Shown: in pieces, positions 5,450-35,855 of the stretch
Layout: every line of letters starts with the position of its first letter
Numbering within the stretch: position 1 is the stretch's first letter
From: Alistipes sp. ZOR0009
GTDB taxonomy: Bacteria > Bacteroidota > Bacteroidia > Bacteroidales > ZOR0009
DNA length: 64,000 bases
NCBI RefSeq assembly: GCF_000798815.1
Contig: NZ_JTLD01000033.1
Span: 1-64,000 of the forward strand
Direction: 5' to 3'
Notes under the pieces: model-generated
The model's input: the letters and a program-made list of their open reading frames with translations, nothing else
What the model was told of the DNA's origin: nothing
Databases searched by the model: none
Program-made: the position numbers and the translations under genes

Positions 5450-5454
5450 CTATA

Positions 5455-10390: not shown

Positions 10391-10407
10391 TCTTTCATAC
10401 AAATATG

Positions 10408-11967: not shown

Positions 11968-11972
11968 TATAT

Positions 11973-16200: not shown

Positions 16201-16232
16201 CTCTTGCATTTGGTATTGACATTGGGTTCTAG
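13215..16232 (+). CDS. SusC/RagA-type TonB-linked outer-membrane transporter (SusC1)
   Basis: 1005 aa from the ATG at 13215, where a signal peptide (MRRFLSFLLILLV..., cleaved near ALAQ) starts; the frame is open from 13170. Residues about 22-100 are a CarboxypepD_reg-like domain (VSGQVTSMDGKETLPGVNVFV). A TonB-box-like segment, EEVVVTGYGT, comes next, then the plug domain with GMGSMNAGNQPLYVIDGVP and GSRAANGVIVITTKRGK, and a 22-strand barrel ending in GIDIGF. It imports an oligomeric nutrient with its SusD lid, driven by TonB. Codons are strongly C-ended (AAC, TAC, TTC, ACC), unlike susC3, which suggests high expression. susD1 starts about 54 bases later. Substrate unknown. Confidence 0.95.
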   Translation: MRRFLSFLLILLVGASTALAQQRKVSGQVTSMDGKETLPGVNVFVKEFPTTGTITDIDGKYELKSLPAGSKTLVFRFVGMKLIERPITSDVINAKMEADNQQIEEVVVTGYGTYKKQAFTGSASTIDSKKTMDVPTVSIENKLAGAVAGVNITSTSGQPGSVQSVSIRGMGSMNAGNQPLYVIDGVPMMTGNASSFSYESAGSSLLSTLNANDIENMTVIKDAAAASLYGSRAANGVIVITTKRGKAGKTKFNVKSDFGFSDMAINYRPTLNGDDRREILHLGLVNYATKNGIADPTGYANTNIDTYAGKPWSGYTDWRDLLLQRGMHQNHEVSAAGGSENTNFYSSLSYTSQQGITLNSDFERVTGRLNLNHKAGNFNMGANVTFASTEQDVNTEGTSFSNPLMALSMTISPSSYPYNEDGTYATYFPALNADSNPLQSSNVNYNKSKIIRTQNNVFAGYSITKDLSVKQTLSLDFNNTNSSVWWDPRFGDGKGSKGVMQKYSINRTRLSSQTQAQYVKTFADVHNVDVLAAYELEDNKTESLYGNGNTFPSFQKPEIGNASTTRASSSTDGHRMISYVGRVNYNYDNKYFVGGSFRRDGTSRLSPDSRWGNFWSTSASWMFTKEDFMSSLQNVVSNGKLRLSYGVNGTQPSDLYGFMALYGYGYNYNGNPGSAETQLENSGLKWEKNYATNIGLDFTLFNRLSFTVDYYNRDTKDLIMNLPVSQTTGFSNYLVNIGEMNNRGFEFEITSRNFATNDFTWTTSFNLTHNKNKVTKLDGNQTEIIDGRLIHKVGYAYNTFYLREYAGVDPQTGKELFYTNDGTGGTTTNPSAAKYVTAGSVDPKVSGGLSNNLRWKDFDLNFTFTYSLGGKAYDNATWIQSNGGTYNYYGNVPSYYDINKVWTGPGDTKATLPQFTYGNTNNVSTRWLKSTDHLRLKNLTFGYNIPKNWVAKAGFEKVRLYFSGTNLLTFKDKDLYFDPEVPTNGIVLFTAPALRTLAFGIDIGF

Positions 16233-18976: not shown

Positions 18977-19411
18977 TAATAAGCTGCCACTGAAGAGGAA
19001 CTTGAGGGAGTAGCGGCAGGCGCTTGCTGTTCACAAAAGAATGATGGGTAATTGCTCATTATTTAAATAAAGCCTGAATATCGGGGATTTCGGGGATTCG
19101 GGAAGCTGTGTCTAGGGGATGCTGTAGACCTGTTTTCGTAGAAGGCTATTCTGGCAACTTGAATGGTATTGTATGGAATGGTCAGATAATCAACTAAATG
19201 CGAATTGTTATTGTGTATTAACATATGTATTTAAATGTGCCTTTATAGGTGTTTTGCATAAATTAAGATTGTGTTTTTGTTTGTAGCCTTATTTAGGGTA
19301 ACAGCTTATAAATTATAAGCAAAAGCAGGTTCGTATAGCTAAATTGCAATGTAAAAAAACAGTATTGGTTACAGTTAATTACGAAAAATTGACACTGACA
19401 GCTTGTTTTTA
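18977..19411. other. Non-coding stretch between array 1 and the susC2 promoter
   Basis: About 435 AT-rich bases. A short direct repeat TCGGGGATT occurs twice near 19080-19098. No ORF, RNA gene or terminator recognised. Confidence 0.4.
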
Positions 19412-19441
19412 TTGTTTAGTAGATTTTAAGTGCTACTTTTG
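19412..19441 (+). promoter_or_regulatory. Promoter of susC2
   Basis: TTG at 19412-19414, 19-nt spacer, TACTTTTG at 19434-19441. The leader of about 115 nt contains a perfect 8-bp hairpin, TCCACCAT-gaggg-ATGGTGGA, at 19503-19523. Confidence 0.8.
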
Positions 19442-19542
19442 CATATGTTGCTGGCTGGATATTTAGGCTAATCTTTTGTATTGGTAAGTAGCCTGCTGCA
19501 GCTCCACCATGAGGGATGGTGGAAGAGTGAATTAATCAAATA

Positions 19543-19610
19543 ACAAACTGCTAAACAAACTATTATGAGGCGATTTCTAACGTTACTCGTAACGCTAGTT
19601 GTCTTTGGCG
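19543..19610 (+). repeat. SusC 5' cassette, copy in susC2
   Basis: From 22 bases before the ATG to codon 15 this copy is nearly identical to those in susC3 and susC4. Inside the gene it carries the palindrome CGTTAC-TC-GTAACG at 19581-19594. Differences from the other copies begin around the tenth codon. Confidence 0.85.
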
Positions 19611-22600
19611 TTGGCTCAGCGCTAGGGCAAGTAAAGCAAGTCACTGGGGTTGTTACATCTGCGGATGACAAGCAATCCATTCCAGGGGTAAGCGTTTTTG
19701 TAAAGGAAGCTCCATCTGTGGGTGCTTCAACGGACATCAACGGAAAGTACACCCTTAAAAATGTTCCTGCAAATGCAAAAACTATTGTATTCCGATTCGT
19801 AGGATACACTTCGGTAGAGCTTCCTATTAGTGCTACCTTAGACGTGGCGCTTCAGTCTGAGGCTCAAAAAATCGATGAGGTAATGGTTGTAGCCTATGGT
19901 ACTGCTAAGAAGAGTGCCTTTACTGGTTCTGTTGCTCAGATTAACGAAAAAAAGTTGGAGCGTAAGAACGTTTCTGAAATTTCTAAAGCTCTAGCTGGTG
20001 AGGTTGCTGGTGTTGCCATTGTAAATACATCAGGTCAGCCAGGTAGTAATGCAACCATTAGAATCCGTGGTTTTGGATCTGTAAATGCAAGCCAAAGCCC
20101 TCTTTACATTGTTGATGGAGTTCCTTTTAACGGAGACATTAGCTCTATTTCTCCTAGTGATATTGCAACGACTTCTGTTTTAAAGGATGCAACAGCTACC
20201 GCCATTTATGGTGCTAGAGGTGCCAATGGGGTAGTTCTGATTACAACCAAAAAGGGTGATAGAAACTCTTCTTCTATTGATGTAGAAGTTAAAACGGGTT
20301 GGAATATGAAGCTGCTTCCAAGCTACGATGTAATTAGCAATCCTGAGCATTTTATGGAGTTGACTTGGGAGTCTATGCGAAATAGAACGATTGCAGTAGG
20401 TTACGACGCCACTCCTGCTGGTTCTTTGAAGTTGTCAGATCCTGCTGCTTATGCTGCTGGTTTTAAAGCTTATTGGGATGCAAACTATGCTGCTGCTGGT
20501 GTTAATGCTTCGAAGTATATATTCGATGGCAATCAGAAAGGGATCAACAGCGTATATAACATGTGGAAAGCAGATGGAGATAAGCTTATAGATCCTACAA
20601 CTGGAAAGTTTATTAAAGGTATCGAACGTAAGTACACTCCAGAAGATTGGGAGGATAATATCTTTAGAACAGGAAAGAAGGTTGAAGCCTCTGTAAAATT
20701 TAGTGGTGGAAATGAAAAGACTCAGTATTTTTCTTCATTTGGTATCAATAATGACCAGGGGTACTACATTGGTTCTGACTTTTCTCGCTTAAATGCTCGC
20801 TTAAACGTAAACCATAAGCCTAAGGAATGGCTTAAGGGAAGCGTAAATATGGCCTACTCTTACATGGAGACAAACAATCCGGGACAGACTGGTTCTGCCA
20901 ATAACGGATTCTACTTTGTAAATAATATTCCGTCCATTTATCCTGTTTTTCAACGTGATGAAAATGGAGCGCTAATTCCTGATATGCTTGTTGGGGGTAA
21001 CCGTTACGACTATGCTTTTAGCAGCTTAGGCGGAAGGCCTTTTGGTGATGGTATTAATCCTGCAGGCGCCGTAAGATTAGACAAAAGAAGAACATTTGCA
21101 CATCAAATTTCTGCAACATCGAACTTGGAGGCTACTTTGGCTCAAGGTTTAACATTGAGCACAACTTTCGGAACCCAAGTTTTGGCTAACGATCTATCTT
21201 CTCTTACTAATCCATATTACGGAGATGCTGCTGGTTTAGGTAGAATTTACAAAGAAATGAATATTCTTTCTTCGTACACTTGGACTCAGATGCTTAGATA
21301 TGCTACTAAGTTTGACGGAGGACATAACGTGAATGCTTTTATTGCTCACGAAGTTACTTCGGAGGATAACAAGTACAATAACGGACAGAAGGATGGTTTG
21401 GTTGAGCCAGGAACGCTAACTTGGAACAATGCCGTAAACATGTCTTCAATGAACTCGTATATTGTCGACTACTTTATTGAGTCTTACTTTGGTCAGGTAA
21501 ACTATGACTACAAGGAAAAGTATTTTGTATACGGAACAATCCGTCGCGATGGCTCTTCTCGTTTCCCCAATAACAGATGGGGTAACTTCGGTGCAGTTGG
21601 TGCTGCATGGGCCATTTCTTCAGAGGATTTCATGAAACAATTCGAGTTTATTCGTAGCATGAAACTTAAGGCTAGCTATGGTATTCTAGGAAACCAAGAT
21701 ATTGGGAACTATCCCGCCTACAACAACTATGCAATTGAAAACCTTGAAAAGAAACCAGCCTTTGTATATAACTACAGAGGAAATATGGATCTTACTTGGG
21801 AAAAAAGTAAGATGTTCAACGTTGGTTTGGAGTTCTCTTTAGGAAACTATATTGATGGTGAGGTTGAGTACTTCAGAAAAAACACGGATAACCTTCTTTT
21901 CTATAAGAGAGTTTCTCCTTCTATTGGATTTGAAAAAGTTCCCGTAAACGATGGTAAACTATTAAATACAGGTATTGAGTTTAATTTTACGGCTCACCTA
22001 GTAAATACTAACGACTTGCGAGTTGATTTCAGAATTAATGGCTCGCACATCAACAACGAAATGAAGAGAATGCCTATTGACGAGGCTACAGGAAAGGAAA
22101 AAATTGTTGATGACCAGGGTGCTTATGCTTATACCAAAGGCCATTCTTTATACGACTTTTATGTTAGAGAGTATGCTGGGGTAGAGGCTCAAACAGGTTT
22201 ACCACAGTGGAATCGTTACTACTACATGGATGGAGCAAACAAGGTGACTATTTCTTCGATGGAAGAATTCTTAGCTGGTGATAAAAAAGGTAGTAAGGTG
22301 TTGGTGGAAAAAACATTTGATTACAACAATGCTACTAAAAAGTATATTGGAAAATCAGCAATACCTGCTTTAACAGGGGGCTTTGGTTTCGATGTATCGT
22401 ACAAAAACTTCACGCTAGCAACTCAATTCTTGTATAGCCTTGGCGGATATTCTTACGACAATATGTACGCAGGTTTGATGTCAAATAACGAATCAGGTGG
22501 AAACAACTGGTCTACTGATATAGAGAAGCGTTGGCAAAAGCCCGGAGATGCAACTTCTATTCCTCGTCTAACAAATGACTACGATAAGGATGGCTATAGC

Positions 22601-22852
22601 GTTTCTGATAGAGGTATTGTAAAGAGTAACTACTTAAACCTAAACAATATTCTTCTATCTTACGAGTTGCCAAAGAATATCGTAAGCAAGTTGAGCGTTA
22701 AAGGTGCTTCTATAAGCGTAAGTGGTGATAACCTCTGGTTGACAACCAAAAGAAAGGGCTATGTTCCTTCTACATCAGTTAGTGGTAGCAACGACAGCTA
22801 CAGGTACTCTCCTTTGAGCACCGTATCTGTTGGATTAAAGGTTCAATTCTAA
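19565..22852 (+). CDS. SusC/RagA-type TonB-linked outer-membrane transporter (SusC2)
   Basis: 1095 aa. The signal peptide MRRFLTLLVTLVVFGVGSALGQ is nearly identical to those of SusC3 and SusC4. Then come the CarboxypepD_reg-like domain (about 23-100), the segment DEVMVVAYGTAKKSAFTGS (TonB-box region and plug start), plug motifs GFGSVNASQSPLYIVDGVP and GARGANGVVLITTKKG, and the barrel ending VGLKVQF. It should import an unknown oligomer with SusD2. It has its own promoter and a hairpin in the leader; susD2 begins 12 bases after the stop. No degradative enzyme is near. Confidence 0.95.
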   Translation: MRRFLTLLVTLVVFGVGSALGQVKQVTGVVTSADDKQSIPGVSVFVKEAPSVGASTDINGKYTLKNVPANAKTIVFRFVGYTSVELPISATLDVALQSEAQKIDEVMVVAYGTAKKSAFTGSVAQINEKKLERKNVSEISKALAGEVAGVAIVNTSGQPGSNATIRIRGFGSVNASQSPLYIVDGVPFNGDISSISPSDIATTSVLKDATATAIYGARGANGVVLITTKKGDRNSSSIDVEVKTGWNMKLLPSYDVISNPEHFMELTWESMRNRTIAVGYDATPAGSLKLSDPAAYAAGFKAYWDANYAAAGVNASKYIFDGNQKGINSVYNMWKADGDKLIDPTTGKFIKGIERKYTPEDWEDNIFRTGKKVEASVKFSGGNEKTQYFSSFGINNDQGYYIGSDFSRLNARLNVNHKPKEWLKGSVNMAYSYMETNNPGQTGSANNGFYFVNNIPSIYPVFQRDENGALIPDMLVGGNRYDYAFSSLGGRPFGDGINPAGAVRLDKRRTFAHQISATSNLEATLAQGLTLSTTFGTQVLANDLSSLTNPYYGDAAGLGRIYKEMNILSSYTWTQMLRYATKFDGGHNVNAFIAHEVTSEDNKYNNGQKDGLVEPGTLTWNNAVNMSSMNSYIVDYFIESYFGQVNYDYKEKYFVYGTIRRDGSSRFPNNRWGNFGAVGAAWAISSEDFMKQFEFIRSMKLKASYGILGNQDIGNYPAYNNYAIENLEKKPAFVYNYRGNMDLTWEKSKMFNVGLEFSLGNYIDGEVEYFRKNTDNLLFYKRVSPSIGFEKVPVNDGKLLNTGIEFNFTAHLVNTNDLRVDFRINGSHINNEMKRMPIDEATGKEKIVDDQGAYAYTKGHSLYDFYVREYAGVEAQTGLPQWNRYYYMDGANKVTISSMEEFLAGDKKGSKVLVEKTFDYNNATKKYIGKSAIPALTGGFGFDVSYKNFTLATQFLYSLGGYSYDNMYAGLMSNNESGGNNWSTDIEKRWQKPGDATSIPRLTNDYDKDGYSVSDRGIVKSNYLNLNNILLSYELPKNIVSKLSVKGASISVSGDNLWLTTKRKGYVPSTSVSGSNDSYRYSPLSTVSVGLKVQF

Positions 22853-22863
22853 AACGTAGAACG

Positions 22864-24339
22864 ATGATAAAAGCAAAATATTTATTGGGTTTCCTATCGT
22901 TAGGAGCCTTGCTGGTTGGCTGTAGTGAAGATAATTTCGACAAGAGGCCTACTGAAACAATATCAGATAAGAACTTGCAGGAGCAGTATAAAAAGGATCC
23001 AAAGGTTATTGATGGAATGATCCGAGGCGCTTATTTTATGCTATTCAAAACAGGTTCAGGAGGTACAACTGGGCACTCTGACTTTGGTCAAAAGTCGGTT
23101 GATATTTCTACTGATATTTTATCAGGAGATATGGCGCAACGAAAGAGTAGCTACGGGCATTTTTATAATAATGAGGAGTTGCTTTCTACTACAAGAACAA
23201 GTGGAACAAACCAGATGTACTGGAAGTACTATTTCAAAGTTGTGAAGTCTTGTAATGACATTCTATCGCTGTTCTTTGAGAATGATACTGAGCAGCCTAA
23301 AGAAAATCAGGCAAAATGGGGGCAAGCAAAAGCTTTACGAGCTTATGCTTACTATAACTTGGCAATGATGTATTCGAAGGGGTATAGCTCTCCAGATGAT
23401 CTTTGTGTTCCTATATACAATGTTAAAAACATGGATGTTGCTGCTCCTTTGAGCTCTGTTCGTAAGGTGCTGGAATTTGCAAAGAAAGACTTGGAAGATG
23501 CAGTAGTTGCGCTAGCTGGATTTAAGCGTGACGGAAAGTACCAAATTGACGAATATGTTGCTTCTGGTATGCTTTCTTACGTTTATTTGACAGTTGGAGA
23601 GTACGACAAGGCAATTGCATCTGCTGATAAGGTGTTGGCTGCATACAAGCCAATGACTGCGCTTGAAGTTACAGGTGGATTAAATTCTATTGCTGCTCCA
23701 AGTTTGATGTGGGGAGTGGATATAACCAATGAGAACTCTGGGAGCTTAGTGACATTTTGGGGGCATATGGATATTTATACTTATAGCTATGTTTATGCTG
23801 GTGCTCGTAAAACCATTGACAAAGGCTTGTATGATCAGATATCAGCACAAGATGTAAGAAAGTACCAGTTTAGTAGTTCATCGTTACTTCCTTTGTGGAA
23901 GTTTTATGATAAGGGGCGTGTTAATGGTGGAGACAGAAAATGGGAAAATGATATTTTCTGGATGAGAGCCGATGAGTTTATTCTTGTAAAGGCTGAGGCT
24001 CAGGCACGTTCTGGAAAGGCTGGTGATGCTTCGACAACATTAAACACCCTTTTAAGCAAAAGAGCCGCTGTTGAAGGAACACCTGGATGTTTCCCTGCAG
24101 GCACACCTGCTGGCGCACCTACCTACGACATGACCAACATTCTAGATGCTGTATACTTGCAGTGGAGAATCGAAACTTGGGGAGAAGGACGTGCTCTTTC
24201 TATTATGAAGCGTTTCCAAAAGAGCGTAAAAAGAGGTGTAAATCACTCAGAATATCCTGGTGCGGTTATTTCTTATGATGATCCACGCCTGACGTTTGCA
24301 ATTCCTGAAGTTGAGGCTGTTAATAACCCTAACTTCTAG
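22864..24339 (+). CDS. SusD/RagB-type nutrient-binding lipoprotein (SusD2)
   Basis: 491 aa with lipobox LVGC (Cys20). Family features include AKALRAYAYYNLAMMYSKGY (about residue 160), WMRADEFILVKAEAQARSG in the C-terminal SusD_RagB domain, and VYLQWRIETWGEGRALSIMKRF near the end. It begins 12 bases after susC2 and is followed by a terminator, so the unit has two genes. It binds the substrate of SusC2 at the cell surface; the substrate is unknown. Confidence 0.94.
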   Translation: MIKAKYLLGFLSLGALLVGCSEDNFDKRPTETISDKNLQEQYKKDPKVIDGMIRGAYFMLFKTGSGGTTGHSDFGQKSVDISTDILSGDMAQRKSSYGHFYNNEELLSTTRTSGTNQMYWKYYFKVVKSCNDILSLFFENDTEQPKENQAKWGQAKALRAYAYYNLAMMYSKGYSSPDDLCVPIYNVKNMDVAAPLSSVRKVLEFAKKDLEDAVVALAGFKRDGKYQIDEYVASGMLSYVYLTVGEYDKAIASADKVLAAYKPMTALEVTGGLNSIAAPSLMWGVDITNENSGSLVTFWGHMDIYTYSYVYAGARKTIDKGLYDQISAQDVRKYQFSSSSLLPLWKFYDKGRVNGGDRKWENDIFWMRADEFILVKAEAQARSGKAGDASTTLNTLLSKRAAVEGTPGCFPAGTPAGAPTYDMTNILDAVYLQWRIETWGEGRALSIMKRFQKSVKRGVNHSEYPGAVISYDDPRLTFAIPEVEAVNNPNF

Positions 24340-24363
24340 AATAAAACATACACTTTTAATTGG

Positions 24364-24396
24364 CAAGGCTACCTTTTAGGTAGCCTTGCTTTTTTA
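24364..24396 (+). terminator. Terminator of susCD2
   Basis: A 10-bp stem CAAGGCTACC/GGTAGCCTTG with a 5-nt loop is followed by CTTTTTT. Confidence 0.92.
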
Positions 24397-24597
24397 TGCT
24401 ATGTCATGATACTGATGCCTATAAATGAGGTGAAATTGTCTTATTCGGTTTTTGGAATGCGTTCTGGTTCGAATTATGAGTAGTCTGACGAACTGTAAGC
24501 AACTTTAGAAATCAGGTTATCAACAGCAACTAGAATGCTATTTTTTACTTTCAGATAAGCATAGATTAACTAATATTCGAATAAATTAAGTCGAAAG

Positions 24598-24627
24598 TTG
24601 CTTGTGTGAATAAATGTTATAAATTTG
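24598..24627 (+). promoter_or_regulatory. Promoter of susC3
   Basis: TTG at 24598-24600, 19-nt spacer, TAAATTTG at 24620-24627. It lies exactly 104 bases before the ATG, the same distance as in susC4. The gap 24397-24597 shows nothing else. Confidence 0.85.
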
Positions 24628-24687
24628 CAAATGTCGATTTCGTATTATCAATGGGCTGGTTTGCGCTTAGTTTTTCGGAATCAGACA

Positions 24688-24769
24688 AATGAAAATTTAT
24701 TACAAACTGCTAAACAAACTATTATGAGGCGATTTTTAACGTTACTCGTAACGCTGCTTGTTTTTGGTG
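24688..24769 (+). repeat. SusC 5' cassette, copy in susC3
   Basis: From 36 bases before the ATG to base +46 of the gene, this copy differs from the susC4 copy at one position only (base +13). It contains CGTTAC-TC-GTAACG at 24740-24753. The promoter-to-ATG distance is also the same (104 bases), so the whole 5' region is a recent duplication or is kept alike by recombination. Confidence 0.9.
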
Positions 24770-27700
24770 TTGGCTCAGCGCTAGGACAGGTAAAGCAAGT
24801 TACTGGGGTTGTCAAATCTTCGGATGATAAGCAGCCCATACCAGGCGTAAGCGTTTTTGTGAAGGAGGCTCCTTCTGTGGGGGCTTCTTCTGATCCTAAC
24901 GGAAAGTATGTTTTAAAAAACATACCCGCTAATGCAAAAACTATTGTGTTTAAATCCGTAGGGTATGCCACTGTGGAATTTCCTATTAAAAATGTGTTAG
25001 ATGTTGCTCTTCAGCCTGAGTCTCAAAAGATAGAAGAGGTGATGGTTGTTGCTTATGGGACTTCAAAAAAGAGTTCTTTTACAGGATCAGCAGAGTCTGT
25101 AAAATCCGAGAAGTTGAGCACAAGACCGATTGCGAATGTAACAAAAGCATTAGATGGAATGGTTGCAGGTGTTCAAACAACGTCTGGTTCAGGTCAACCT
25201 GGTTCAGGAGTTTCTATAGTTGTTCGTGGATATGGATCGATAACATCATCTCAATCTCCACTTTACGTTGTAGATGGTGCCCCTTACGATGGGAATATTT
25301 CATCGATTAATCCTAATGACATTGAATCTATGACTATTCTGAAAGATGCTTCTTCTGGAGCTCTTTATGGAGCCAGAGGGGCTAATGGTGTGATTATGAT
25401 CAATACGAAAAAGGGTAAGGCAGGTAAAGTTAAAGTTAACTTCAAGGCTAACTGGGGAGTTGCTTCTCGTTCAATTCCTCGATATGAAACAATGGATGAG
25501 GCTGGTTACTTGGAAACCGTTTTTCAATCATATAAAAATAAATCCATCATTTCTGATGGGCTTTCACCCGAAGCAGCTGCAATTGCTGCGCTAGAAGCGA
25601 TGAGAAGTGGTTCTGCTGCGATATTTGGAAATAACGAGGAGTATAATCCATATAATTATTCTATAAACCAATTGATTGATCCTAAAACGGGAAAAGTAAG
25701 GTCTGATGCAAAATTACGCTATCATGAAGATTGGCTTGATGAAGTGATGGCTAAGAATCCACTTCGTCAAGAGTATGTTACGTCATTCTCTGGCGGAGAT
25801 GAAAAGACTAGATATATGTTTTCCGCAGGATACTTAACAGAAGAGGGGTTGTTGAAAACAACAGAATTTAACAGGTATAATGGTCGGTTAAATATTGACT
25901 CAGATGTTGCAAAATGGTTAAAAGCAGGGATGAGTGCAAGTTATTCAAGGAATGAGAGTAATTCTGCTCCAGAGAATAGTTCTGCAAATTCTAATGTTTG
26001 GTATACCAATCAGTTGATGGCTCCTATATTTCCTGTTTATAAAAAAGATGATAAAGGGCAAACTATTTACGATAATTTAGGGAGTCCGGTGTTTGATTAT
26101 GGGGTGAACCGTCCTGCAGGCGCTACTGCAAATTGGAATACGATTGCAACTCTTTATGATGACATGTACAGTTCTAGCAGTGATAATTTGAGTGGGCGTA
26201 TCTTTACTGATATTGGTAACTTGAATTCTGGTCCTTTGAAGGGGTTGACGTTATCTGTAAGTTATGGTTTTGATCTTATAAACTCAGCAAGCGCATCTTA
26301 CTATAATCCATATAATGGAAATTCTGTTGCGGTGAAAGGATCACTTTCTAAGGCTAATGGGAGAACTTTTAGTTACACGTTTAACCAAATTCTCAAATAT
26401 GATCGCAAAATAGGAGAGCATCATTTTGAAGCATTAGCAGGTCATGAGTTTTATAAGTATAGATATGATTACTTGGGTGCATCGAAAACAGGTTTCCCAT
26501 TTGGAGGTCTATTTGAACTAGATGCTGCGACTTCTATTACTGCTGCAAGTAGTTATCAGAACAATTATGCAATTGAGTCTGTATTGTCCAGATTTGGATA
26601 CGACTATGGCGATAAGTACTACTTTTCAGCAAGTTTTAGAACCGATGGTTCCTCTAGGTTTCATGAAGATAATCGTTGGGGGAATTTTTGGTCAGTAGGT
26701 GGAAATTGGAGAATTTCACAAGAATCCTTTTTACAAGGAGTATCTTGGTTAAATAACTTGGCAGTAAAAGCAAGTTATGGAGTTCAAGGTAATGATAATG
26801 TCAATACACTTTATGCTTGGCAATCTTTATATGACTTGGGGTATCCTAATGCTTCTATGAGTGGAGCTCTTATTACGTCTTTGGAGAATAAGGGGCTTAA
26901 ATGGGAAAAAAATTCAAACCTTAACATAGGTGTTGAGTTGAAAGTTTTTAACAGAGTTTCTGCAACTATCGAGTGTTATGAAAGAAAGACAACCGATATG
27001 TTAATGGATTTTCCAATGGCGTCATCTTTGGGATTCGATGGATATCGAAAAAATATTGGATCGATGAGAAATAGAGGGCTTGACATGACAATTGGGGTTG
27101 ACGTTTTAAAAAGTAATGATTTTGTATGGAGAACAACTTTAATTGGCTCTGTAATTAAGAATAAAGTATTAAAACTTGCTGATAAGCCAGAGATTATATC
27201 TGGTAATTATATAATAAAGGAAGGAGAAACTCTAAATTCTTATTATACATCGAGTGCAGCTGGAGTTGATCCTGCGACAGGTAAGCAGTTGTATTGGGTT
27301 TGGGATATTGATGCTGATGGAAATAAGGGGCAGAAGTATGTTTCTGATAATATGACCAAAGCAACAACATGCCGTGAAATAAAAGGGAGTAGAATTCCAG
27401 ACTTATATGGGTCAATTAATAATGAGTTTAGATATAAAGGCATTGACTTTTCCTTTCTATGTACTTATTCCTTAGGGGGGAAAATTCTAGATGGAGTTTA
27501 TAGTACTTTGATGTATGGAAATTACGTGGGTCAGGCACGAAGTAGACATTTAGAGAGAGCATGGAAGCAGCCAGGGGATGTAACGGATGTTCCTAGGATA
27601 GAAATTGGGACTACTCAGGTTACTACCGATAATAATCTAATTGATGCTTCGTATTTTGCTATTAAGAATGTTACTGTTGGTTACACCTTACCTTTTAAAT

Positions 27701-27870
27701 GGTTAAAAACCGCTGGTATTGAATCCTTTCGGGTGACAGCTGCAGGAGATAATATTGCGATGTTCACGCACTTAAAGGGAATGAATCCTCAGTATAACTT
27801 CACTGGAGGAACTAATTTTGGTTATGTTCCAACAAGGAATATTACATTTGGAATTGATGTTAGATTTTAA
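24724..27870 (+). CDS. SusC/RagA-type TonB-linked outer-membrane transporter (SusC3)
   Basis: 1048 aa from the ATG at 24724, the point where the shared SusC signal peptide begins; the frame is open from 24625, but that part overlaps the promoter. Domains: signal (1-22), CarboxypepD_reg-like (about 24-100), EEVMVVAYGTSKKSSFTGS, plug with GYGSITSSQSPLYVVDGAP and GARGANGVIMINTKKG, then the barrel ending FGIDVRF. Residues 1-105 are much closer to SusC2 than the rest is. Codons are AT-rich (AAT, TAT, TTT) compared with susC1. First gene of a three-gene unit with susD3 and a lipoprotein. Substrate unknown. Confidence 0.95.
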   Translation: MRRFLTLLVTLLVFGVGSALGQVKQVTGVVKSSDDKQPIPGVSVFVKEAPSVGASSDPNGKYVLKNIPANAKTIVFKSVGYATVEFPIKNVLDVALQPESQKIEEVMVVAYGTSKKSSFTGSAESVKSEKLSTRPIANVTKALDGMVAGVQTTSGSGQPGSGVSIVVRGYGSITSSQSPLYVVDGAPYDGNISSINPNDIESMTILKDASSGALYGARGANGVIMINTKKGKAGKVKVNFKANWGVASRSIPRYETMDEAGYLETVFQSYKNKSIISDGLSPEAAAIAALEAMRSGSAAIFGNNEEYNPYNYSINQLIDPKTGKVRSDAKLRYHEDWLDEVMAKNPLRQEYVTSFSGGDEKTRYMFSAGYLTEEGLLKTTEFNRYNGRLNIDSDVAKWLKAGMSASYSRNESNSAPENSSANSNVWYTNQLMAPIFPVYKKDDKGQTIYDNLGSPVFDYGVNRPAGATANWNTIATLYDDMYSSSSDNLSGRIFTDIGNLNSGPLKGLTLSVSYGFDLINSASASYYNPYNGNSVAVKGSLSKANGRTFSYTFNQILKYDRKIGEHHFEALAGHEFYKYRYDYLGASKTGFPFGGLFELDAATSITAASSYQNNYAIESVLSRFGYDYGDKYYFSASFRTDGSSRFHEDNRWGNFWSVGGNWRISQESFLQGVSWLNNLAVKASYGVQGNDNVNTLYAWQSLYDLGYPNASMSGALITSLENKGLKWEKNSNLNIGVELKVFNRVSATIECYERKTTDMLMDFPMASSLGFDGYRKNIGSMRNRGLDMTIGVDVLKSNDFVWRTTLIGSVIKNKVLKLADKPEIISGNYIIKEGETLNSYYTSSAAGVDPATGKQLYWVWDIDADGNKGQKYVSDNMTKATTCREIKGSRIPDLYGSINNEFRYKGIDFSFLCTYSLGGKILDGVYSTLMYGNYVGQARSRHLERAWKQPGDVTDVPRIEIGTTQVTTDNNLIDASYFAIKNVTVGYTLPFKWLKTAGIESFRVTAAGDNIAMFTHLKGMNPQYNFTGGTNFGYVPTRNITFGIDVRF

Positions 27871-27882
27871 CGGAGGCAGATT

Positions 27883-29433
27883 ATGAAAAAGATTATATAT
27901 GCAATTGCTCTTTTTGCGGCGTTCTCTGTAAGCAGTTGTACAGATGAGTTGAATACAGTCCCTTCCGACAAGGTTTCTGGGCCAACTATTTTTAAAGATG
28001 CAACTAGTGCAGAAACAGCTATTAATGGTGTTTATCGGATGTTGTACGTAATGGGATGGAGTTCAAGTTGGGCTCATGAGAATTGCGGTCAAACAGCAAT
28101 AAATCTTCTCGCAGATCTTATGGCGGAAGACCATTTGATGCAGGATCAGGGATCGGGATGGTTTTATGAAGATTATCGTCTAAACGTGCATGGAGATTTT
28201 TCGGGTAAAAGTGGAAGATCCTATTCTATTTGGAACTTTTATTATACAATGATCTGTAATGTAAACTATATAATTGCTTCAGAATCGGCTATGGCTGGAG
28301 ATCCAGAATTAAAACAAAGTATTATAGGTCAGGCTTATGCTATGCGAGCTTTTGCGTATAGTTATTTGATACAACTTTATCAACAAACCTATGTTGGGCA
28401 TGAGACTTATCCTGGAGTTCCTTTGTACACAGAACCTACAGTTGCAGGATCTGTAGGGAAGCCAAGGGGGACTGTTCAGCAAGTATATGATTTGATTAAT
28501 GCAGATCTAGGAAAGTCCATTACTTTGTTAGGTGGGGTGAAAAATAAAGTTCACAAGCATGCCTCTCAGGTTGATTACTATGTGGCAAATGGTATTAAAG
28601 CGCGAGTAAGCCTTGTTCAGGGGCATTATCAAGATGCTATTGATGCAGCAAAGGAAGCTCTTGGAAGACCTGATTTGAAAGTTGCAACCGTAAAAGAGTT
28701 GGGCGGGAATAATAGTGTAAAGGTGTCTGATGTTCTTTGGGGAGTGGAAATAATCAAAGATCAGACAAGTGGCGTTGGTAGTTTTTTTGCCCACATGGAT
28801 GCAGATGTTCCCGGTTCATATGGATCTAAAGCACGTCAATGTATTAGTTATGGTTTGTATAATCTGATATCAGATACTGATGAACGTAAGTCTTCTTGGT
28901 TTAGGGGGAAGTTAACCCCAGACATTGGTTTAAATTCAAATGTAAGTTACTGTCAAACTAAGTTTAAAATGGCTGATTATTCTACACGAACCGGAGATTA
29001 TATCTTTATGCGTGCAGAAGAAATGATTTTAATTAAGGCGGAGGCAGAATGTAAATTAGATAAATATCCGGAAGCGCGAACTACTCTAAAATTATTGGGA
29101 AATGCGAGGGATAGTAAGTTTGAGGATCGATTAGCATTACGAACTGATGCAAAAACTTTCAATAGTGATACAAATGCTCCGTTGCAAACGCTTATGGATG
29201 AGATCTTATTCCAAAGAAGGTTGGAGCTGTGGGGCGAATTTGGTAGGATATTTGATTTACAAAGGTTAGGGTTAGGTTATAGTCGAGTTTACGATAAGTC
29301 GAATCATACTGAAAAAGTGTCGACTAAACCTACAACAGCAGCTTCTCCGTTATTTATTCTTCCTTTACCTCAATCAGAGATTGATGGGAATGAAAATATA
29401 ACAGACAAGGATCAAAATCCTATTGTAAGGTAA
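27883..29433 (+). CDS. SusD/RagB-type nutrient-binding lipoprotein (SusD3)
   Basis: 516 aa, lipobox VSSC (Cys19), starting 12 bases after susC3. Recognisable parts are GQAYAMRAFAYSYLIQLYQQTY (about residue 150), FMRAEEMILIKAEAECKLDKYPEAR, and LFQRRLELWGEFGRIFDLQRLG near the C-terminus. It is expected to be the surface lid and binder of SusC3. It shares the AT-rich codon use of susC3. Confidence 0.94.
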   Translation: MKKIIYAIALFAAFSVSSCTDELNTVPSDKVSGPTIFKDATSAETAINGVYRMLYVMGWSSSWAHENCGQTAINLLADLMAEDHLMQDQGSGWFYEDYRLNVHGDFSGKSGRSYSIWNFYYTMICNVNYIIASESAMAGDPELKQSIIGQAYAMRAFAYSYLIQLYQQTYVGHETYPGVPLYTEPTVAGSVGKPRGTVQQVYDLINADLGKSITLLGGVKNKVHKHASQVDYYVANGIKARVSLVQGHYQDAIDAAKEALGRPDLKVATVKELGGNNSVKVSDVLWGVEIIKDQTSGVGSFFAHMDADVPGSYGSKARQCISYGLYNLISDTDERKSSWFRGKLTPDIGLNSNVSYCQTKFKMADYSTRTGDYIFMRAEEMILIKAEAECKLDKYPEARTTLKLLGNARDSKFEDRLALRTDAKTFNSDTNAPLQTLMDEILFQRRLELWGEFGRIFDLQRLGLGYSRVYDKSNHTEKVSTKPTTAASPLFILPLPQSEIDGNENITDKDQNPIVR

Positions 29434-29458
29434 TTAATGAATTTACAGGAGGAAAATT

Positions 29459-30238
29459 ATGAAAGCAAGAATATTATTTTTTTTACTAGCTATCTTTGTA
29501 TATGTATCCTTTGTGTCGTGTAATAAGGATGCAGAAGGAGTCATTTATAATGAGAATGTAAATACGGTCTCATTTGCTTCTACACAGATGAATATCGAAG
29601 TTACAGCAGATGATAAAGGTGTTGTTAAATTTCCTGTTTATAGAGGATCCAAAGACGGTGATTTAAGTGTTGACTTGACGATGACTTCATCGAGCAACCT
29701 TTTTTCATTGAAAACTCCATCAGTTAAATTCAGTAAAGATGAATCTGTTGTTTATGCAGAATTGAGTTTCGGTGATGTAAATAATTTGGGAGTTACAGAT
29801 GAGTATCAAGTAAAGGTCTCAATAGCAAATGAAGATAAATTGTCTATATCAGGTGTTGCTACGTTAGTTGTAAAATTGAAACGCAAATTAACTTGGGAAG
29901 TGTATGGTGTAGGTAAGTATACTTCAGGATTGTTTGGTGAGGCGTGGGATCAAACTATCGAAAAGGCCAAAGAAGGAAATATTTATAGACTGCCAGATTG
30001 TATTTTTAAAGGTTATCCTTTTGTTTTTGTGTTGAGTGAAGATGGTCAGTCTTTAGCTTCATGGTCGGTTCAAGCGTCTGGTTATAAACATAATACTTAC
30101 GGAATGGTGTACTTCTCTGGAAAATCTATGGTTAGAACTGGTCAGACATTGGCATTTACATTGCAAGGTCTTGTGGTTGTAAATGGTAAATATGCTGTTT
30201 TGGTAAAAAGTTTTACAGAAACATTAGAATTGCCATAA
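29459..30238 (+). CDS. Surface lipoprotein of the susCD3 unit, function unknown
   Basis: 259 aa with lipobox FVSC (Cys21). Residues about 35-135 look like an immunoglobulin/Calx-beta-type sandwich domain (VSFASTQMNIEV, VKFPVYRGSKDGDLSV). Residues about 140-259 form a second beta-rich part (LTWEVYGVGKYTSGLFG, YRLPDCIFKGYPFVFVL) like those in lipoproteins that often follow susD in Bacteroidetes. By position it is the counterpart of SusE/SusF and may bind the same ligand at the surface. It starts 25 bases after susD3 and ends at a terminator. Confidence 0.65.
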   Translation: MKARILFFLLAIFVYVSFVSCNKDAEGVIYNENVNTVSFASTQMNIEVTADDKGVVKFPVYRGSKDGDLSVDLTMTSSSNLFSLKTPSVKFSKDESVVYAELSFGDVNNLGVTDEYQVKVSIANEDKLSISGVATLVVKLKRKLTWEVYGVGKYTSGLFGEAWDQTIEKAKEGNIYRLPDCIFKGYPFVFVLSEDGQSLASWSVQASGYKHNTYGMVYFSGKSMVRTGQTLAFTLQGLVVVNGKYAVLVKSFTETLELP

Positions 30239-30258
30239 GAAATTTTGTCTATAACTTT

Positions 30259-30292
30259 AAGGGTTACCATCACAGGTAACCCTTTTGTTTTG
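30259..30292 (+). terminator. Terminator of the susCD3-lipoprotein unit
   Basis: A 10-bp stem AAGGGTTACC/GGTAACCCTT with a 6-nt loop is followed by TTGTTTTG. Confidence 0.88.
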
Positions 30293-30463
30293 TATTAGGA
30301 CTAAAATCGCATTTAAGCCTTTAGGGAGCGTAGGTTATTTGTTTGAAAGCTTATGAATTTCAACTAGGTCATTAGATTATTAAAGGAATTGTAATGAAAA
30401 ATTAGATTTAGAATGATTATTGCAACTAATATTAACCGTAATTATTAAAAATTTAAATAAGTA

Positions 30464-30493
30464 TTGTCGTTGTGAAATAATGTTATAAATTTG
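30464..30493 (+). promoter_or_regulatory. Promoter of susC4
   Basis: TTG at 30464-30466, 19-nt spacer, TAAATTTG at 30486-30493, 104 bases before the ATG. The surrounding sequence (TGTTATAAATTTGCA, then TGTCGATTT) matches the susC3 promoter. The gap 30293-30463 is AT-rich and shows nothing else. Confidence 0.85.
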
Positions 30494-30553
30494 CAGGTGT
30501 CGATTTTGATTTATCTAGAGGTGATTGCACACCTGATTTCGCAAGATCGGTAG

Positions 30554-30635
30554 AATGAAAATTTATTACAAACTGCTAAACAAACTATTATGAGGCGATT
30601 TCTAACGTTACTCGTAACGCTGCTTGTTTTTGGTG
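30554..30635 (+). repeat. SusC 5' cassette, copy in susC4
   Basis: It matches the susC3 copy over 82 bases with one difference. It contains CGTTAC-TC-GTAACG at 30606-30619. After about codon 25 the two genes diverge quickly. Confidence 0.9.
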
Positions 30636-33600
30636 CTGGCTCGGCGCTTGGACAAGTAAAGCAAGTAACAGGAAAGGTATTGTCCGCAGAGGATAAGCAA
30701 CCGATTCCTGGAGTTAGTGTATTTGTTAAGGAGGCATCAAGTGTTGGTACATCAACCAACGTTGAGGGTCAATTTACACTTAAAAATCTTCCTGTCAACG
30801 CAAAGACTTTAGTTTTTAGGACTGTAGGTTTTCAAACTCAGGAGGTTGCAATTAAGAGTGGTGAGATTAATATAATCTTATCTCCCGAGACTCAAAAGAT
30901 TGATGAGGTCGTGGTGACTGCAATGGGTATGAAAAAATCGGAGAAGACATTAGGCTATGCTGCATCAACAGTAAAAAGCGAAGATCTACTCGCAGGACGT
31001 TCTGCATCTGTAATGTCGGGTATTGCAGGTAAAGTTGCAGGAGTGAATGTCTCTTCATCCGGACAAACAGGAACTTCTCAAAAGGTAATTGTACGTGGTT
31101 ATTCTTCTTTTTCACAAAACCAGCCACTGTATGTTGTTGATGGAGTACCTATTCAAAACAGTTTCTCGGGAAGCAGTAGTAGTTCTGATGCTGTAGACTT
31201 TGGAAACCAAGCTGGCGACATCAACCCCGATGACGTTGAGTCTCTAACCGTTCTAAAAGGAGCATCAGCAACCGCTCTTTATGGTTCAAGGGCTGCCAGT
31301 GGTGTAATAATGATTACCACTAAAAGAGCTCAACAGGATGAGAAAATTACAGTTGAGTACAATGGTTCGTTTACGGCTAGTAATGTGCTTCGAGTGCCTC
31401 AAACTCAAAATGTTTTCGGACAAGGATGGCCTGATTGGGATAGAATGGAAAATGGCTCATGGGGTCCAAAATTAGATGGTCGTCTTCATGATTGGGGAGC
31501 ACCACTTGATGCAAACGGGAAATTTGATCCAAATGCTAAAGGCCGCATTAAAAGGTTTTCATATGTTGAAGATAACTTAAGAAACTTTTATGAAACAGGT
31601 TTTGAAACCAACAACTCCGTAAGCATTAAGGGAGGTACTAAAAATACAGGCTTGGTATTTTCGTATGGAAACTCTTATGCTAACGGTGTAATTCCTACTG
31701 ATGCAGACAAGTACAGTCGAAACACTTTTTCGTTTAGAGGAAATACGAAGTATAACAACTTTGATATCAATTACTCTGTTAACTATGTTCGCAAAGATAT
31801 GAACAATGTAAGTGCAGGGCAGGGGGATAATGGAGCTACTATCTTTCCTGAATTGTTGCAGCATGCTGTTGATGTAGACTTCCAAGATACAAAGGATCTA
31901 AACAACATTTACAATAATACAGACAATTACTATACTGTTTATGCGGAAAATCCTTGGTGGGTTGTTAAAAACAATGGGAATAAGTATCAGGACGATCGCG
32001 TATACGGGAAAACAGAATTAAACTACCAAATTCTAAAAGGACTTAAAGCAATAGCTCGTTTAGGAGGTGATTTTACCAACTCTCGTCAACAAAGATGGAA
32101 TGCGATTGCAAGAAGAACAGTAGGTAGTTATGCTGCCGAAGGTGGGAAGAAAAATGAAGTAGGCTACTATAATGAGAGAAATGATGCATGGGATCAAATT
32201 GATTTTACAGGTTTACTATCTGGAAACTACAAGTTAACAGAAGATGTTGGATTCGATGGTGTTTTGGGTTACAACTTCAACCAACGTTCATCTTCTTATC
32301 ATAATTCATCGCTATCAGGTTTGGTACAACCTAATTGGTATAGTTTAGAAAATGGAGAAGTAATGCCTATAACCAGTTCTGGTATTTCAAGAAGAAGATT
32401 GATTGGCGCATTTAGCCAAATGAATTTTGATTTTAGAAACTACTGGTTCTTAACAGTTTCTTTAAGAAATGACTGGTCTTCAACTTTACCTAAGGGTAAA
32501 AATAGTTTCTTTTACTGGGGATTAAATACTTCTGTAATCTTAACAGATATGTTTAAATCATTGCAAAGTGATAATGTAAACTTTATAAAGTTAAGAGCGG
32601 CTTACGGTCAAACGGGTAATGACGCCCCTGCTTATAGAACACAATCAGCCTATTATCCAACTCAGATTGGTCTTGGGTTTGGGGATTTATATTTCCCATA
32701 TGGAGGAGTCCTTGGATTAACAGAGAGCAACCGTTTAGGAAATATGGGGCTTAAGCCTGAAATTACTACTGAACTTGAGTTTGGTATTGATGCTCGCTTT
32801 TTCAAGAATAGATTAACATTTGATATTGCTTACTACAATAAAGAGACTAGGGATCAAATCATTTCTGCTACAGTGGCGCCAGAAACAGGTTACACTTCTA
32901 GAACACAGAATATTGGTAAAATCCAAAATCAAGGTATTGAAGCAAATATGCGCATTATTCCTGTTAGAACATCTGATTTGGAATGGGAAATAGGTGTAAC
33001 TTTTGCAAAGAATAAAAGTAAGGTAAAAGAACTCTGGGCCGGTACTGACAGGTATCTCATCGTATCTGGATATGACATAGATTTCACAGCCATTGTAGGT
33101 AAACCTCTTGGTCAATTCCTTGCCCCTGCGGAACTTCGGGTTGCAGAAGGAGAGCATAAAGGTAAAATTGTTGTTAATTCAGCAGGTCGACCTCAAATTG
33201 ACGCAAGTAAAAAGGATAATGTGGGAACTTCGCAGCCTGATTTTACAATGGGGTTCAATACGCGTGTAACCTACAAGGGGATAACTCTTAGCGGTGTTTT
33301 AGATTGGCGAAAAGGTGGTCAATTCTGGAGTTACACTTCTCATATTATGAATTTTAATGGTAATGCCACTAAAACTACATTTAACGAAAGACAACCGTTT
33401 GTTATCCCTAATTCTGTAAAGCAGACAGGTGTTGATGCAAATGGGAAACCTGTTTATGTAGAAAACGACATTCCTATTGCTAATAATGCAATGTATGATT
33501 ATTATAACAACTCTAAAAACACTCCAATTCAAAAGACTTTTGTGCTTCCTAAGGATTATCTAAAGTTGAGAGAAATTGCGGTATCATACTCTTTACCTAG

Positions 33601-33802
33601 TAAACTTTTCAAAAAGGGTTATGTTAAAGGAGTTAGTTTTGGAGTTGTGGGACGTAACCTGTTCTTATGGACACCTAAAGACAATAATTTTGTAGATCCA
33701 GAGGCTACCAATTTTGGAAATGACATCACCTCAGAACTTGGTGAGTTTGCAGCAGCCCCAACAACGAGGAATTACGGAGGTAGTTTAAAAATCACTTTTT
33801 AG
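30590..33802 (+). CDS. SusC/RagA-type TonB-linked outer-membrane transporter (SusC4)
   Basis: 1070 aa. The signal peptide is the shared SusC form ending GSALGQ. Then come the CarboxypepD_reg-like domain (about 24-100), DEVVVTAMGMKKSEKTLGYA, plug motifs GYSSFSQNQPLYVVDGVP and GSRAASGVIMITTKR, and a barrel ending GGSLKITF. The plug belongs to a different SusC subgroup from SusC2/SusC3 (AMGMKKSEKTLGY against AYGTxKKSxFTGS), although the first 25 codons are almost identical in DNA. It pairs with SusD4. Substrate unknown. Confidence 0.95.
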   Translation: MRRFLTLLVTLLVFGAGSALGQVKQVTGKVLSAEDKQPIPGVSVFVKEASSVGTSTNVEGQFTLKNLPVNAKTLVFRTVGFQTQEVAIKSGEINIILSPETQKIDEVVVTAMGMKKSEKTLGYAASTVKSEDLLAGRSASVMSGIAGKVAGVNVSSSGQTGTSQKVIVRGYSSFSQNQPLYVVDGVPIQNSFSGSSSSSDAVDFGNQAGDINPDDVESLTVLKGASATALYGSRAASGVIMITTKRAQQDEKITVEYNGSFTASNVLRVPQTQNVFGQGWPDWDRMENGSWGPKLDGRLHDWGAPLDANGKFDPNAKGRIKRFSYVEDNLRNFYETGFETNNSVSIKGGTKNTGLVFSYGNSYANGVIPTDADKYSRNTFSFRGNTKYNNFDINYSVNYVRKDMNNVSAGQGDNGATIFPELLQHAVDVDFQDTKDLNNIYNNTDNYYTVYAENPWWVVKNNGNKYQDDRVYGKTELNYQILKGLKAIARLGGDFTNSRQQRWNAIARRTVGSYAAEGGKKNEVGYYNERNDAWDQIDFTGLLSGNYKLTEDVGFDGVLGYNFNQRSSSYHNSSLSGLVQPNWYSLENGEVMPITSSGISRRRLIGAFSQMNFDFRNYWFLTVSLRNDWSSTLPKGKNSFFYWGLNTSVILTDMFKSLQSDNVNFIKLRAAYGQTGNDAPAYRTQSAYYPTQIGLGFGDLYFPYGGVLGLTESNRLGNMGLKPEITTELEFGIDARFFKNRLTFDIAYYNKETRDQIISATVAPETGYTSRTQNIGKIQNQGIEANMRIIPVRTSDLEWEIGVTFAKNKSKVKELWAGTDRYLIVSGYDIDFTAIVGKPLGQFLAPAELRVAEGEHKGKIVVNSAGRPQIDASKKDNVGTSQPDFTMGFNTRVTYKGITLSGVLDWRKGGQFWSYTSHIMNFNGNATKTTFNERQPFVIPNSVKQTGVDANGKPVYVENDIPIANNAMYDYYNNSKNTPIQKTFVLPKDYLKLREIAVSYSLPSKLFKKGYVKGVSFGVVGRNLFLWTPKDNNFVDPEATNFGNDITSELGEFAAAPTTRNYGGSLKITF

Positions 33803-33827: not shown

Positions 33828-35291
33828 ATGAAAAAAAATTCAATCTTCATAATTCTTATATCCGCTTTTTTTATGCTCACCGCATGTGAAAGTTTTCTGG
33901 ATATAAATAAAGATCCTAATTATCCTGAGAAAGCGTCACCAAAGTTGTTGCTACCTTCAAGCATTGCTTGGACTGCATCTAGAGTCGGTTCTGATCTACA
34001 GATGATAGGTAGTTTTTGGTGTCAGCATTACACTCAGAACAATACGGCTAACCAGTACAACACAACAGTAACGTATGCTCTAACTTATTCTAGTTACAAT
34101 GGTGTTTGGTCTGCTGCATATGCTGGTGCATTGAAAGATCTAAAGTCTATAGTAGAGACCTCGGAAGCAGAAAAGCAGTGGAACTACTATGTGCCCGCAA
34201 AAATACTTATGGCGTTCAATTTTCATGTTTTAGCAGATTTTTACGAAACAGTTCCTTTTAACGAGATTTTACAGGGGGAGGCTAACATGAAACCTAAGTA
34301 TGATGACGGGAAGACTGTTTATGCAGGAATTATTAAGTTACTTGACGAGGCTATTGAAAAGAAGGATTTGGCAATAGCCGCAAATGACGAAAATCCCATT
34401 AAGGCAGAGGATTTTGTTTATAATGGCGACATGAAAAAATGGATTCAGTTTGCAAAATCACTAAAATTTAAGGTTTTAATGCGTGATTATGAGGCAAATA
34501 AAGATGCTCTTGCCAAACTTATTGCCGACAACGATTTTGTAACTGTTGATGCTAGAATGAATGGATTTGTTGATCAAGAAAATAAGTCCAATCCTTTTTA
34601 TGAAAATGACAGAAGAAAATTGAACACAACTAATAATATAAAAGCTTCAAATACACTATTAGCATTTTTATCCGTTAAGAATGACCCTAGGATTGCCAAC
34701 TTTTTTGAAAAGGCCAAAGGTATTTATAAGGGTATACCATATGGTAATACATCGATTTCTTCTTCCGCTTTACCAAGTAATACAACTTCACGCGCCATGC
34801 TAGCGGCAACAGATCCTGTATACTTTTTGTCGGTTGCAGAATCGTACTTTACACTAGCAGAGTATTATGCCAGAATACCTAATGCGGCTAAAGCAAAAGA
34901 GTTTTACGATAAAGCAGTAAATGAGGCATTTCTTCGCTGGGGTTATACTAATGCTGCTGACTTTACTAAAGTTGGAGGTGCTTATGAATTTCCTAGTGAT
35001 GATACTAAAATGATTGAAGCAATAATTACACAAAAGTGGATAGCTTCTACAAGATGCCAAGCATGGGACTCCTTCTTCGATATTAATAGAACGGGATATC
35101 CAAAGTTAGGTACTAAGCAAACTACAGAAGGTGGTTATGTTGTTGGTCAGCTTGTTCCTGCAGCCAACAGCGTTCTTAATGCAGGAGAACTTCCTCGAAG
35201 ACTAATTATTCCTAAGAGTTCTTCAGACTATAATCCCAATGCCCCCAAGATTATCCCGATTGCACAAAAGATGTGGTGGCATAAGCAATAA
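33828..35291 (+). CDS. SusD-like lipoprotein, SusD_2 type (SusD4)
   Basis: 487 aa from the ATG at 33828 (an in-frame TTG lies at 33819), lipobox LTAC (Cys20). The early motif ESFLDINKDPNYPEKASP and the general pattern fit the SusD-like_2 subgroup that pairs with SusC proteins of the AMGMKKSEK type, in agreement with its partner. Later parts include AESYFTLAEYYARIP and ITQKWIASTRCQAWDSFFDINRTGYP. It begins about 25 bases after susC4. Confidence 0.92.
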   Translation: MKKNSIFIILISAFFMLTACESFLDINKDPNYPEKASPKLLLPSSIAWTASRVGSDLQMIGSFWCQHYTQNNTANQYNTTVTYALTYSSYNGVWSAAYAGALKDLKSIVETSEAEKQWNYYVPAKILMAFNFHVLADFYETVPFNEILQGEANMKPKYDDGKTVYAGIIKLLDEAIEKKDLAIAANDENPIKAEDFVYNGDMKKWIQFAKSLKFKVLMRDYEANKDALAKLIADNDFVTVDARMNGFVDQENKSNPFYENDRRKLNTTNNIKASNTLLAFLSVKNDPRIANFFEKAKGIYKGIPYGNTSISSSALPSNTTSRAMLAATDPVYFLSVAESYFTLAEYYARIPNAAKAKEFYDKAVNEAFLRWGYTNAADFTKVGGAYEFPSDDTKMIEAIITQKWIASTRCQAWDSFFDINRTGYPKLGTKQTTEGGYVVGQLVPAANSVLNAGELPRRLIIPKSSSDYNPNAPKIIPIAQKMWWHKQ

Positions 35292-35348: not shown

Positions 35349-35855
35349 ATGAAGATATTAAAGTTATTTACATTAATAAGTCTCTTCTCTTTAGCTTTTG
35401 CAAGCTGTGAGACTTATGAGGATCAAAAAGTAGAATATTCTCCTTTGTTTCCTCTTTGCGGACAATGGGTAGTAAGCATACACGATGCTGCTACAGGATC
35501 CCTAATTCCTAATGGTGATGGTTATACGCTTTATACCTATAATACCTCATCGAATGTCGATAACATTATGTGGGTTAGATTGTCTAATAGTGCGAACCCT
35601 TTTGGTGTTTTGGGTAAAGTGAATTGTTCTGTAGCAGAGAAGTCATTTAGCATTGTAAAAGGAGTTAACACTTTTTTTACGACTGACAATGAACTGACAA
35701 TTACTGAAGGTAAGGTCGTTTTAAATGGATTTGATACTCCATCGGGCGGTAAAAGCGATTTTATTTCGTTTAAGATGAAACCAACAACGAATAGTACTGT
35801 AACCTATTTGATAAAGGGTTTCAGAAGAACTGCTTGGCCTGAAGATATGCCTTAA
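35349..35855 (+). CDS. Small lipoprotein of the susCD4 unit, function unknown
   Basis: 168 aa, lipobox FASC (Cys20). The mature part is beta-rich with CGQWVVSIHDAATG, VDNIMWVRLSNS and FISFKMKPTTNSTVTYLIKG, suggesting one small barrel or lipocalin-like fold. Such proteins are often found after SusD_2-type genes; some are annotated as putative lipid-binding, which I cannot confirm. It starts 57 bases after susD4 and is followed by a strong terminator. Confidence 0.55.
   Translation: MKILKLFTLISLFSLAFASCETYEDQKVEYSPLFPLCGQWVVSIHDAATGSLIPNGDGYTLYTYNTSSNVDNIMWVRLSNSANPFGVLGKVNCSVAEKSFSIVKGVNTFFTTDNELTITEGKVVLNGFDTPSGGKSDFISFKMKPTTNSTVTYLIKGFRRTAWPEDMP

Follow-up and report, generated by a model that had tools for sequence, protein, structure and literature searches.

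How do three susC genes whose bodies have little in common come to begin with nearly the same DNA? The question is raised by the window, a stretch of 64,000 nt from Alistipes sp. ZOR0009 (contig NZ_JTLD01000033.1, positions 1 to 64,000), in which susC2, susC3 and susC4 share a leader, a signal-peptide region and a palindrome inside the coding sequence, and in which the proteins of the same three genes are 22-29% identical beyond alignment column 300. SusC head exchange in Bacteroidetes is already known from site-specific inversion systems, such as the Bacteroides fragilis shufflon in which the invertase Tsr0667 rearranges SusC/SusD genes (Nakayama-Imaohji 2009, cited in PMC4747536). An earlier note on this DNA had proposed that heads may be exchanged or converted among susC bodies, more likely by conversion or deletion than by inversion, with the palindrome as the implied exchange site. 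Here we argue that the window holds tandem, complete susC-susD units whose heads are homogenised within the genome by homologous recombination and whose bodies diverge independently, a reading to which we give a probability of about three in four.

The array is built of complete units

The array is neighboured by a methyltransferase/DUF2400/ABC/secDF block on one side and by mutS on the other (Table 1). All three shared-head units are complete, comprising a promoter-like site, susC, susD and a terminator-like hairpin, and units 3 and 4 each add one lipoprotein-like gene. In a fourth unit, susC1-susD1, the leader and signal peptide (MRRFLSFLLILLV) are related to the shared ones but degenerate. 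The hallmarks of SusC/SusD transporters are present (CarbopepD_reg_2, plug, barrel and a downstream susD), the barrel receiving a Pfam score only in susC1 and susC4. The promoter-like site of susC2, which we take to be of the Bacteroidetes type going by the generally known consensus, is unlike that of susC3 and susC4 (TTG-N19-TACTTTTG and TTG-N19-TAAATTTG, respectively).

Two further features accompany the array. The divergent gap between a 207-aa gene and susC2 contains a 21-bp tandem repeat of about 9 copies (18792-18980) that alternates as a 42-bp unit, AGTAATGGCTCATTTCTTATC / AGTTTTGCGCTATTTCTTATC; the 12-mer TTTCTTATCAGT, typical of this repeat, is absent from both congener arrays described below. 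The 207/208-aa protein, without a Pfam match, is found with the array in the window (17941-18564, minus strand) and in the congener loci L072 (4575-5201) and L073 (17246-17872), and remnants of the 208-aa gene stand ahead of other susC units in the congeners.

Table 1. Features of the susC array in the window; susC2, susC3 and susC4 begin at their ATG, from which head positions are counted.
Feature	Position	Strand	Remarks
susC1	13215..16232	+	degenerate leader/signal peptide relative
susC2 promoter-like site	19412..19441	+	TTG-N19-TACTTTTG, from sequence
susC2 head	19543..19630	+	shared leader from -22 and codons 1-22
susC2	19565..22852	+	N-terminal extension (CarbopepD_reg_2) and plug; no Pfam score for the barrel
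Palindrome, susC2	19581..19594	.	CGTTAC-TC-GTAACG
susD2	22864..24339	+	
Terminator-like hairpin, end of unit 2	24362..24390	+	
susC3 promoter-like site	24598..24627	+	TTG-N19-TAAATTTG, within block repeated at susC4
susC3 82-base head block (-36 to +46)	24688..24769	+	
susC3	24724..27870	+	head like susC4/susC2; body orthologous to a G002 susC, 81% aa
Palindrome, susC3	24740..24753	.	CGTTAC-TC-GTAACG
susD3	27883..29433	+	
Unit 3 259-aa protein, probable lipoprotein	29459..30238	+	no Pfam match
Terminator-like hairpin, end of unit 3	30259..30284	+	
susC4 promoter-like site	30464..30493	+	TTG-N19-TAAATTTG
susC4 82-base head block (-36 to +46)	30554..30635	+	
susC4	30590..33802	+	body orthologous to a G002 susC, 91% aa
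Palindrome, susC4	30606..30619	.	CGTTAC-TC-GTAACG
susD4	33828..35291	+	SusD-like_2 type
Unit 4 168-aa lipoprotein	35349..35855	+	Lipid_bd (PF12888)

The shared head is restricted to the array

The head blocks of susC3 and susC4 differ at one of 82 nt, exactly as the earlier note had claimed, and its description also holds for susC2, which joins the shared block from -22 (no difference from susC4 between -22 and +31), and for the promoters of susC3 and susC4, whose -7 elements (of the TAnnTTTG kind) both lie exactly 104 nt upstream of the ATG. The promoter block of these two genes is 84% identical over 45 nt, and the stretch from the promoter to -36 is poorly conserved. The block itself is therefore real, but its confinement to 82 bases, with divergence of the coding parts soon after, does not hold. 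In an ungapped comparison of susC3 and susC4, similarity declines on either side of the block (25, 17, 17, 30, 29, 27, 22 and 19 matches per 30-nt bin from -120), and head similarity fades through the N-terminal extension domain, being gradually lost by about codon 60-110.

In the whole 4.4-Mb genome the head block occurs three times, always at susC2, susC3 and susC4, and about 70 other CarbopepD_reg_2 proteins of the same genome lack it. The possibility that the head is a feature of all susC genes is thus ruled out, and its sequence does not drift in step with the gene phylogeny either, as described below. Identity among 276 head pairs of CarbopepD_reg_2 proteins from this genome has a median of 35% and, outside the array, does not exceed 63%, a value reached by two genes whose bodies are 50% identical; the likeness of the heads in the array exceeds chance by far. 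A 22-nt match to the leader on contig C25 (E 0.006), which directly follows the stop codon of an unrelated ORF and precedes a terminator-like hairpin, was taken as chance. A scan for the head DNA pattern across GTDB genomes gave no match, and 96 genomes of the same order yielded no true head copy, the two weak hits (33-34 nt) not being susC starts.

Heads and bodies group differently

The comparison included three species: the window genome (W), G001 (a closed genome) and G002. Both congeners carry the array at the same place, between mutS and the methyltransferase/secDF block, with three head copies each, and G002 has a diverged fourth head (G2b) at a locus outside the array. The susC set compared consisted of ten genes (W_C2, W_C3, W_C4, G1_a, G1_b, G1_c, G2_a, G2_C3, G2_C4 and G2b), whose bodies form five orthologous pairs, each with 100/100 support: W_C2/G1_a, G1_b/G2_a, W_C3/G2_C3, W_C4/G2_C4 and G1_c/G2b. 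The bodies group by ortholog family and the heads by genome or array position. With the head taken as -30 to codon 60, the head tree rejects four of the orthologous pairings, i.e. W_C3 with G2_C3 (p 6e-6), W_C2 with G1_a (p 4e-29), G1_c with G2b (p 0.002) and G1_b with G2_a (p 0.02); the pairing of W_C4 with G2_C4 is not rejected (p 0.15). Within the head tract, same-genome paralogs are closer than orthologs for four of the five body pairs. The proposal that heads are exchanged or converted among susC bodies is supported by this incongruence across three species, although the part of it that made the palindrome the site of exchange is not (see below).

The heads of G1_a and G1_b are 98% identical in nucleotides over codons 1-22, with an identical run of 90 bases, and those of G2_a and G2_C3 are 97% identical over the same codons; at the third positions of shared residues, both pairs agree in 95% of cases in the heads versus 42-45% in the bodies. 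G1_c and G2_C4, each the susC closest to the methyltransferase in its array, have an identical head run of 87 bases on bodies that are 26% identical. GENECONV-like segments lie over the head in W_C2-W_C3, W_C3-W_C4, G1_a-G1_b, G2_a-G2_C3 and G1_c-G2_C4, at the permutation floor (p 0.001) of tests that take no account of uneven conservation along the gene, and no such head segment was found in the ortholog pairs. The two-parent breakpoints vary from +44 to +371 (about codon 15 to codon 120). W_C3 is W_C4-like to about +44, W_C2-like into the N-terminal extension and G2_C3-like beyond about +355, and W_C4 is W_C3-like to about +78 and then G2_C4-like; further breakpoints lie at about +145 to +185 and +290 to +371. 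Variable tract ends point to conversion tracts, as a site-specific site would not give them.

Upstream DNA has been involved as well. The 208-aa gene found ahead of susC3 in G002 has a 231-nt fragment of itself in front of susC4 of that genome. The fragment is 85% identical to the intact copy of the same genome, more than the 75% identity between the intact genes of G001 and G002, which indicates that upstream DNA also moved within that genome: a remnant of the upstream gene was copied along with promoter and head. Control loci also count in favour of exchange, since orthologous signal peptides there have drifted to 26-65% identity in amino acids with bodies at 54-85% (one near-identical gene excepted). 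N-terminal extensions, however, evolve faster than bodies there too, so that low similarity between orthologs in this region would alone be weak evidence.

A different explanation starts from the bodies: the head would be a fixed expression site, and bodies would be replaced by foreign DNA with the left crossover in the head and the right one in a neighbouring unit. Consistent with this view, G1_c and G2_C4 have retained a common upstream region, promoter and head at the same array end on unrelated bodies; the susC4 bodies of the window and G002 are more alike in nucleotides (82%) than mutS (76%); and body families sit at different places, and in different sets, across the three arrays. However, body replacement by itself explains neither the agreement of two heads within one genome nor the duplicated upstream-gene fragment in G002, and no donor was found, the nearest named relative of the susC4 body, from Parabacteroides chinchillae (L076), being only 60% identical in amino acids. 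We regard it as possible but doubtful.

The array as a whole (window 12700-36750 versus L071-L074) is inverted as a block relative to the mutS and methyltransferase/secDF flanks, the susC units running one way in the window and the opposite way in both congeners, and no convincing inverted repeats that would explain the inversion were found at the array ends. The G001 array also contains a Mutator-family (PF00872) transposase (L072 2847-4094).

The palindrome is not a likely crossover site

The palindrome CGTTAC-TC-GTAACG (CGTTACTCGTAACG) is present in all three heads, at +17 to +30 from the ATG, as previously described. The 4.4-Mb genome has no further copy, even when one mismatch is allowed, and G001 and G002 have three copies each, all in heads. 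With three copies per genome in three genomes, and these in heads only, the palindrome is ruled out as a repeated genomic element.

If the palindrome were the crossover site of a site-specific recombinase, the array would form a susC-head shufflon. Its occurrence in all array heads of the three species, and at no other place in their genomes, would fit such a role, and Bacteroides fragilis does shuffle SusC/SusD genes by site-specific inversion (PMC4747536). In this array, however, every copy is in direct orientation and no inverted head copy was found; the whole contig is devoid of a tyrosine recombinase (five are encoded elsewhere in the genome), and a search of the genome for serine recombinases found none. 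Nor are there silent, headless bodies, as each of the three shared-head susC bodies comes with a promoter-like site, a start, a signal peptide and a terminator-like hairpin of its own. No breakpoint was inferred inside the palindrome, and both G1_a and G1_b carry changes at its centre. When the head is recoded synonymously, a 6-bp inverted repeat of some kind (gap 0-8) arises in about 10% of cases; the exact 6-2-6 form appears in 0.1% of recodings of the five codons concerned, and the palindrome counts as one event because its copies are homologous. In view of the lack of headless copies, inverted sites, a recombinase on the contig and a breakpoint at the palindrome, a site-specific shufflon is not supported, and we consider it highly improbable; the five tyrosine recombinases on other contigs make a distant master invertase conceivable. 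The link to inversion of the Bacteroides fragilis type, drawn earlier, therefore stands as an analogy only.

A special RNA structure, whether formed by the palindrome or as a start-codon hairpin, was rejected, as the folding is ordinary compared with shuffles and synonymous recoding. The leader preceding the palindrome is conserved equally strongly, and the most plausible view of the palindrome is that it belongs to a conserved region around the translation start.

Selection on the translation start

The leader ACTGCTAAA(A/C)AAACTATT-ATGAGGCGATTT and the palindrome arms are retained in all nine array heads of the three species, and the leader and first ten codons are nearly invariant among them, which makes selection at the nucleotide level on the start region likely. 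Between genomes, third positions in the head agree in 70-80% of cases; since part of the head is thus conserved across genomes, selection contributes to its likeness. Could it be sufficient? Simple tandem duplication, after which strong purifying selection at the nucleotide level held the leader and first codons constant for translation initiation, mRNA structure or a common regulator, would require no exchange at all, and the leader of susC3 and susC4, which has diverged between promoter and -36 and kept its functional ends, agrees with such constraint. But one common target sequence would not yield species-specific heads, and the same-genome diagnostic differences, together with the rejected orthologous pairings, need exchange. 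In addition, the similarity reaches into the N-terminal extension, where nucleotide constraint is not evident, and the predicted folding of the start region is ordinary compared with synonymous resampling (fractions 0.08 to 0.35 for the nine array heads). Selection in place of exchange is accordingly an improbable explanation. Alongside exchange, selection on the start region may keep the homology patch in being.

Discussion

Concerted evolution of the susC heads is well supported by these comparisons. In the mechanism that we propose, the head would serve as a homology patch, and exchange inside it would join the promoter and head of one unit to the body of another, giving a functional chimera. 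The exchanged head would comprise the leader, the signal peptide and the N-terminal extension domain in whole or in part, and in the congeners the promoter too. Gene conversion and unequal crossing-over between direct repeats would be the homogenising route, and the bodies (plug, barrel and partner susD) would diverge and be gained and lost independently. Selection on -25 to +30, palindrome included, would keep the patch nearly identical and hence usable for recombination. The incongruence of heads and bodies, the variable breakpoints, the restriction of the head to the array and the completeness of the units are observed; that ordinary recombination is the enzymatic route, in which direction the individual exchanges went and that selection maintains the patch are inferred.

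The array resembles the Tsr0667 shufflon in that clustered susCD genes combine SusC heads with alternative SusC bodies. The Tsr0667 system, however, uses site-specific DNA inversion and a dedicated invertase, whereas the window has direct, complete and separately promoted copies with no recombinase near. The L076 locus of Parabacteroides chinchillae probably does represent a site-specific susC shufflon (3294-12991): a headless susC body and a complete susC on the other strand face each other over an inverted repeat of 38 nt within the N-terminal extension, with a tyrosine recombinase nearby, and none of these features is present in the window. In Alistipes sp. An66 (L077 8532-13228) a tyrosine recombinase gene lies directly upstream of a SusC4-like gene. 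In the case of RagA of Porphyromonas gingivalis, diverged bodies have a highly conserved N-terminus consisting of signal peptide and CarbopepD_reg_2, and the alleles are exchanged horizontally (PMC11817032, PMC5266723). The window resembles RagAB in this constancy of the N-terminal part over diverged bodies; RagAB is one locus with alternative alleles between strains, whereas here several paralogs of one genome would convert each other. As in concerted evolution of tandem paralogs generally, paralogs are more alike than orthologs within a limited tract with variable ends, but here the tract takes in the 5' head alone and leaves out the bodies. The array thus appears to be a variant of a known exchange, in which the same module is exchanged by homologous recombination among complete tandem units. 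The open-access literature searched contained no direct report of gene conversion of SusC heads, which is not proof of its absence.

A bolder view, which we put forward tentatively and consider rather unlikely, is that receptors are actively switched at this locus: identical 5' heads would act as patches for recombination, and SusCD specificities would be exchanged, dropped or added, and the whole array flipped between mutS and the methyltransferase, within a strain and with no dedicated recombinase.

In summary, the putative conversion tracts of the array can be read across species, and the array offers a concrete locus for testing how a receptor repertoire may diversify without an invertase. 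The findings also suggest that the N-terminal extension of SusC can be interchanged as a module of its own, independently of the barrel that binds the substrate.
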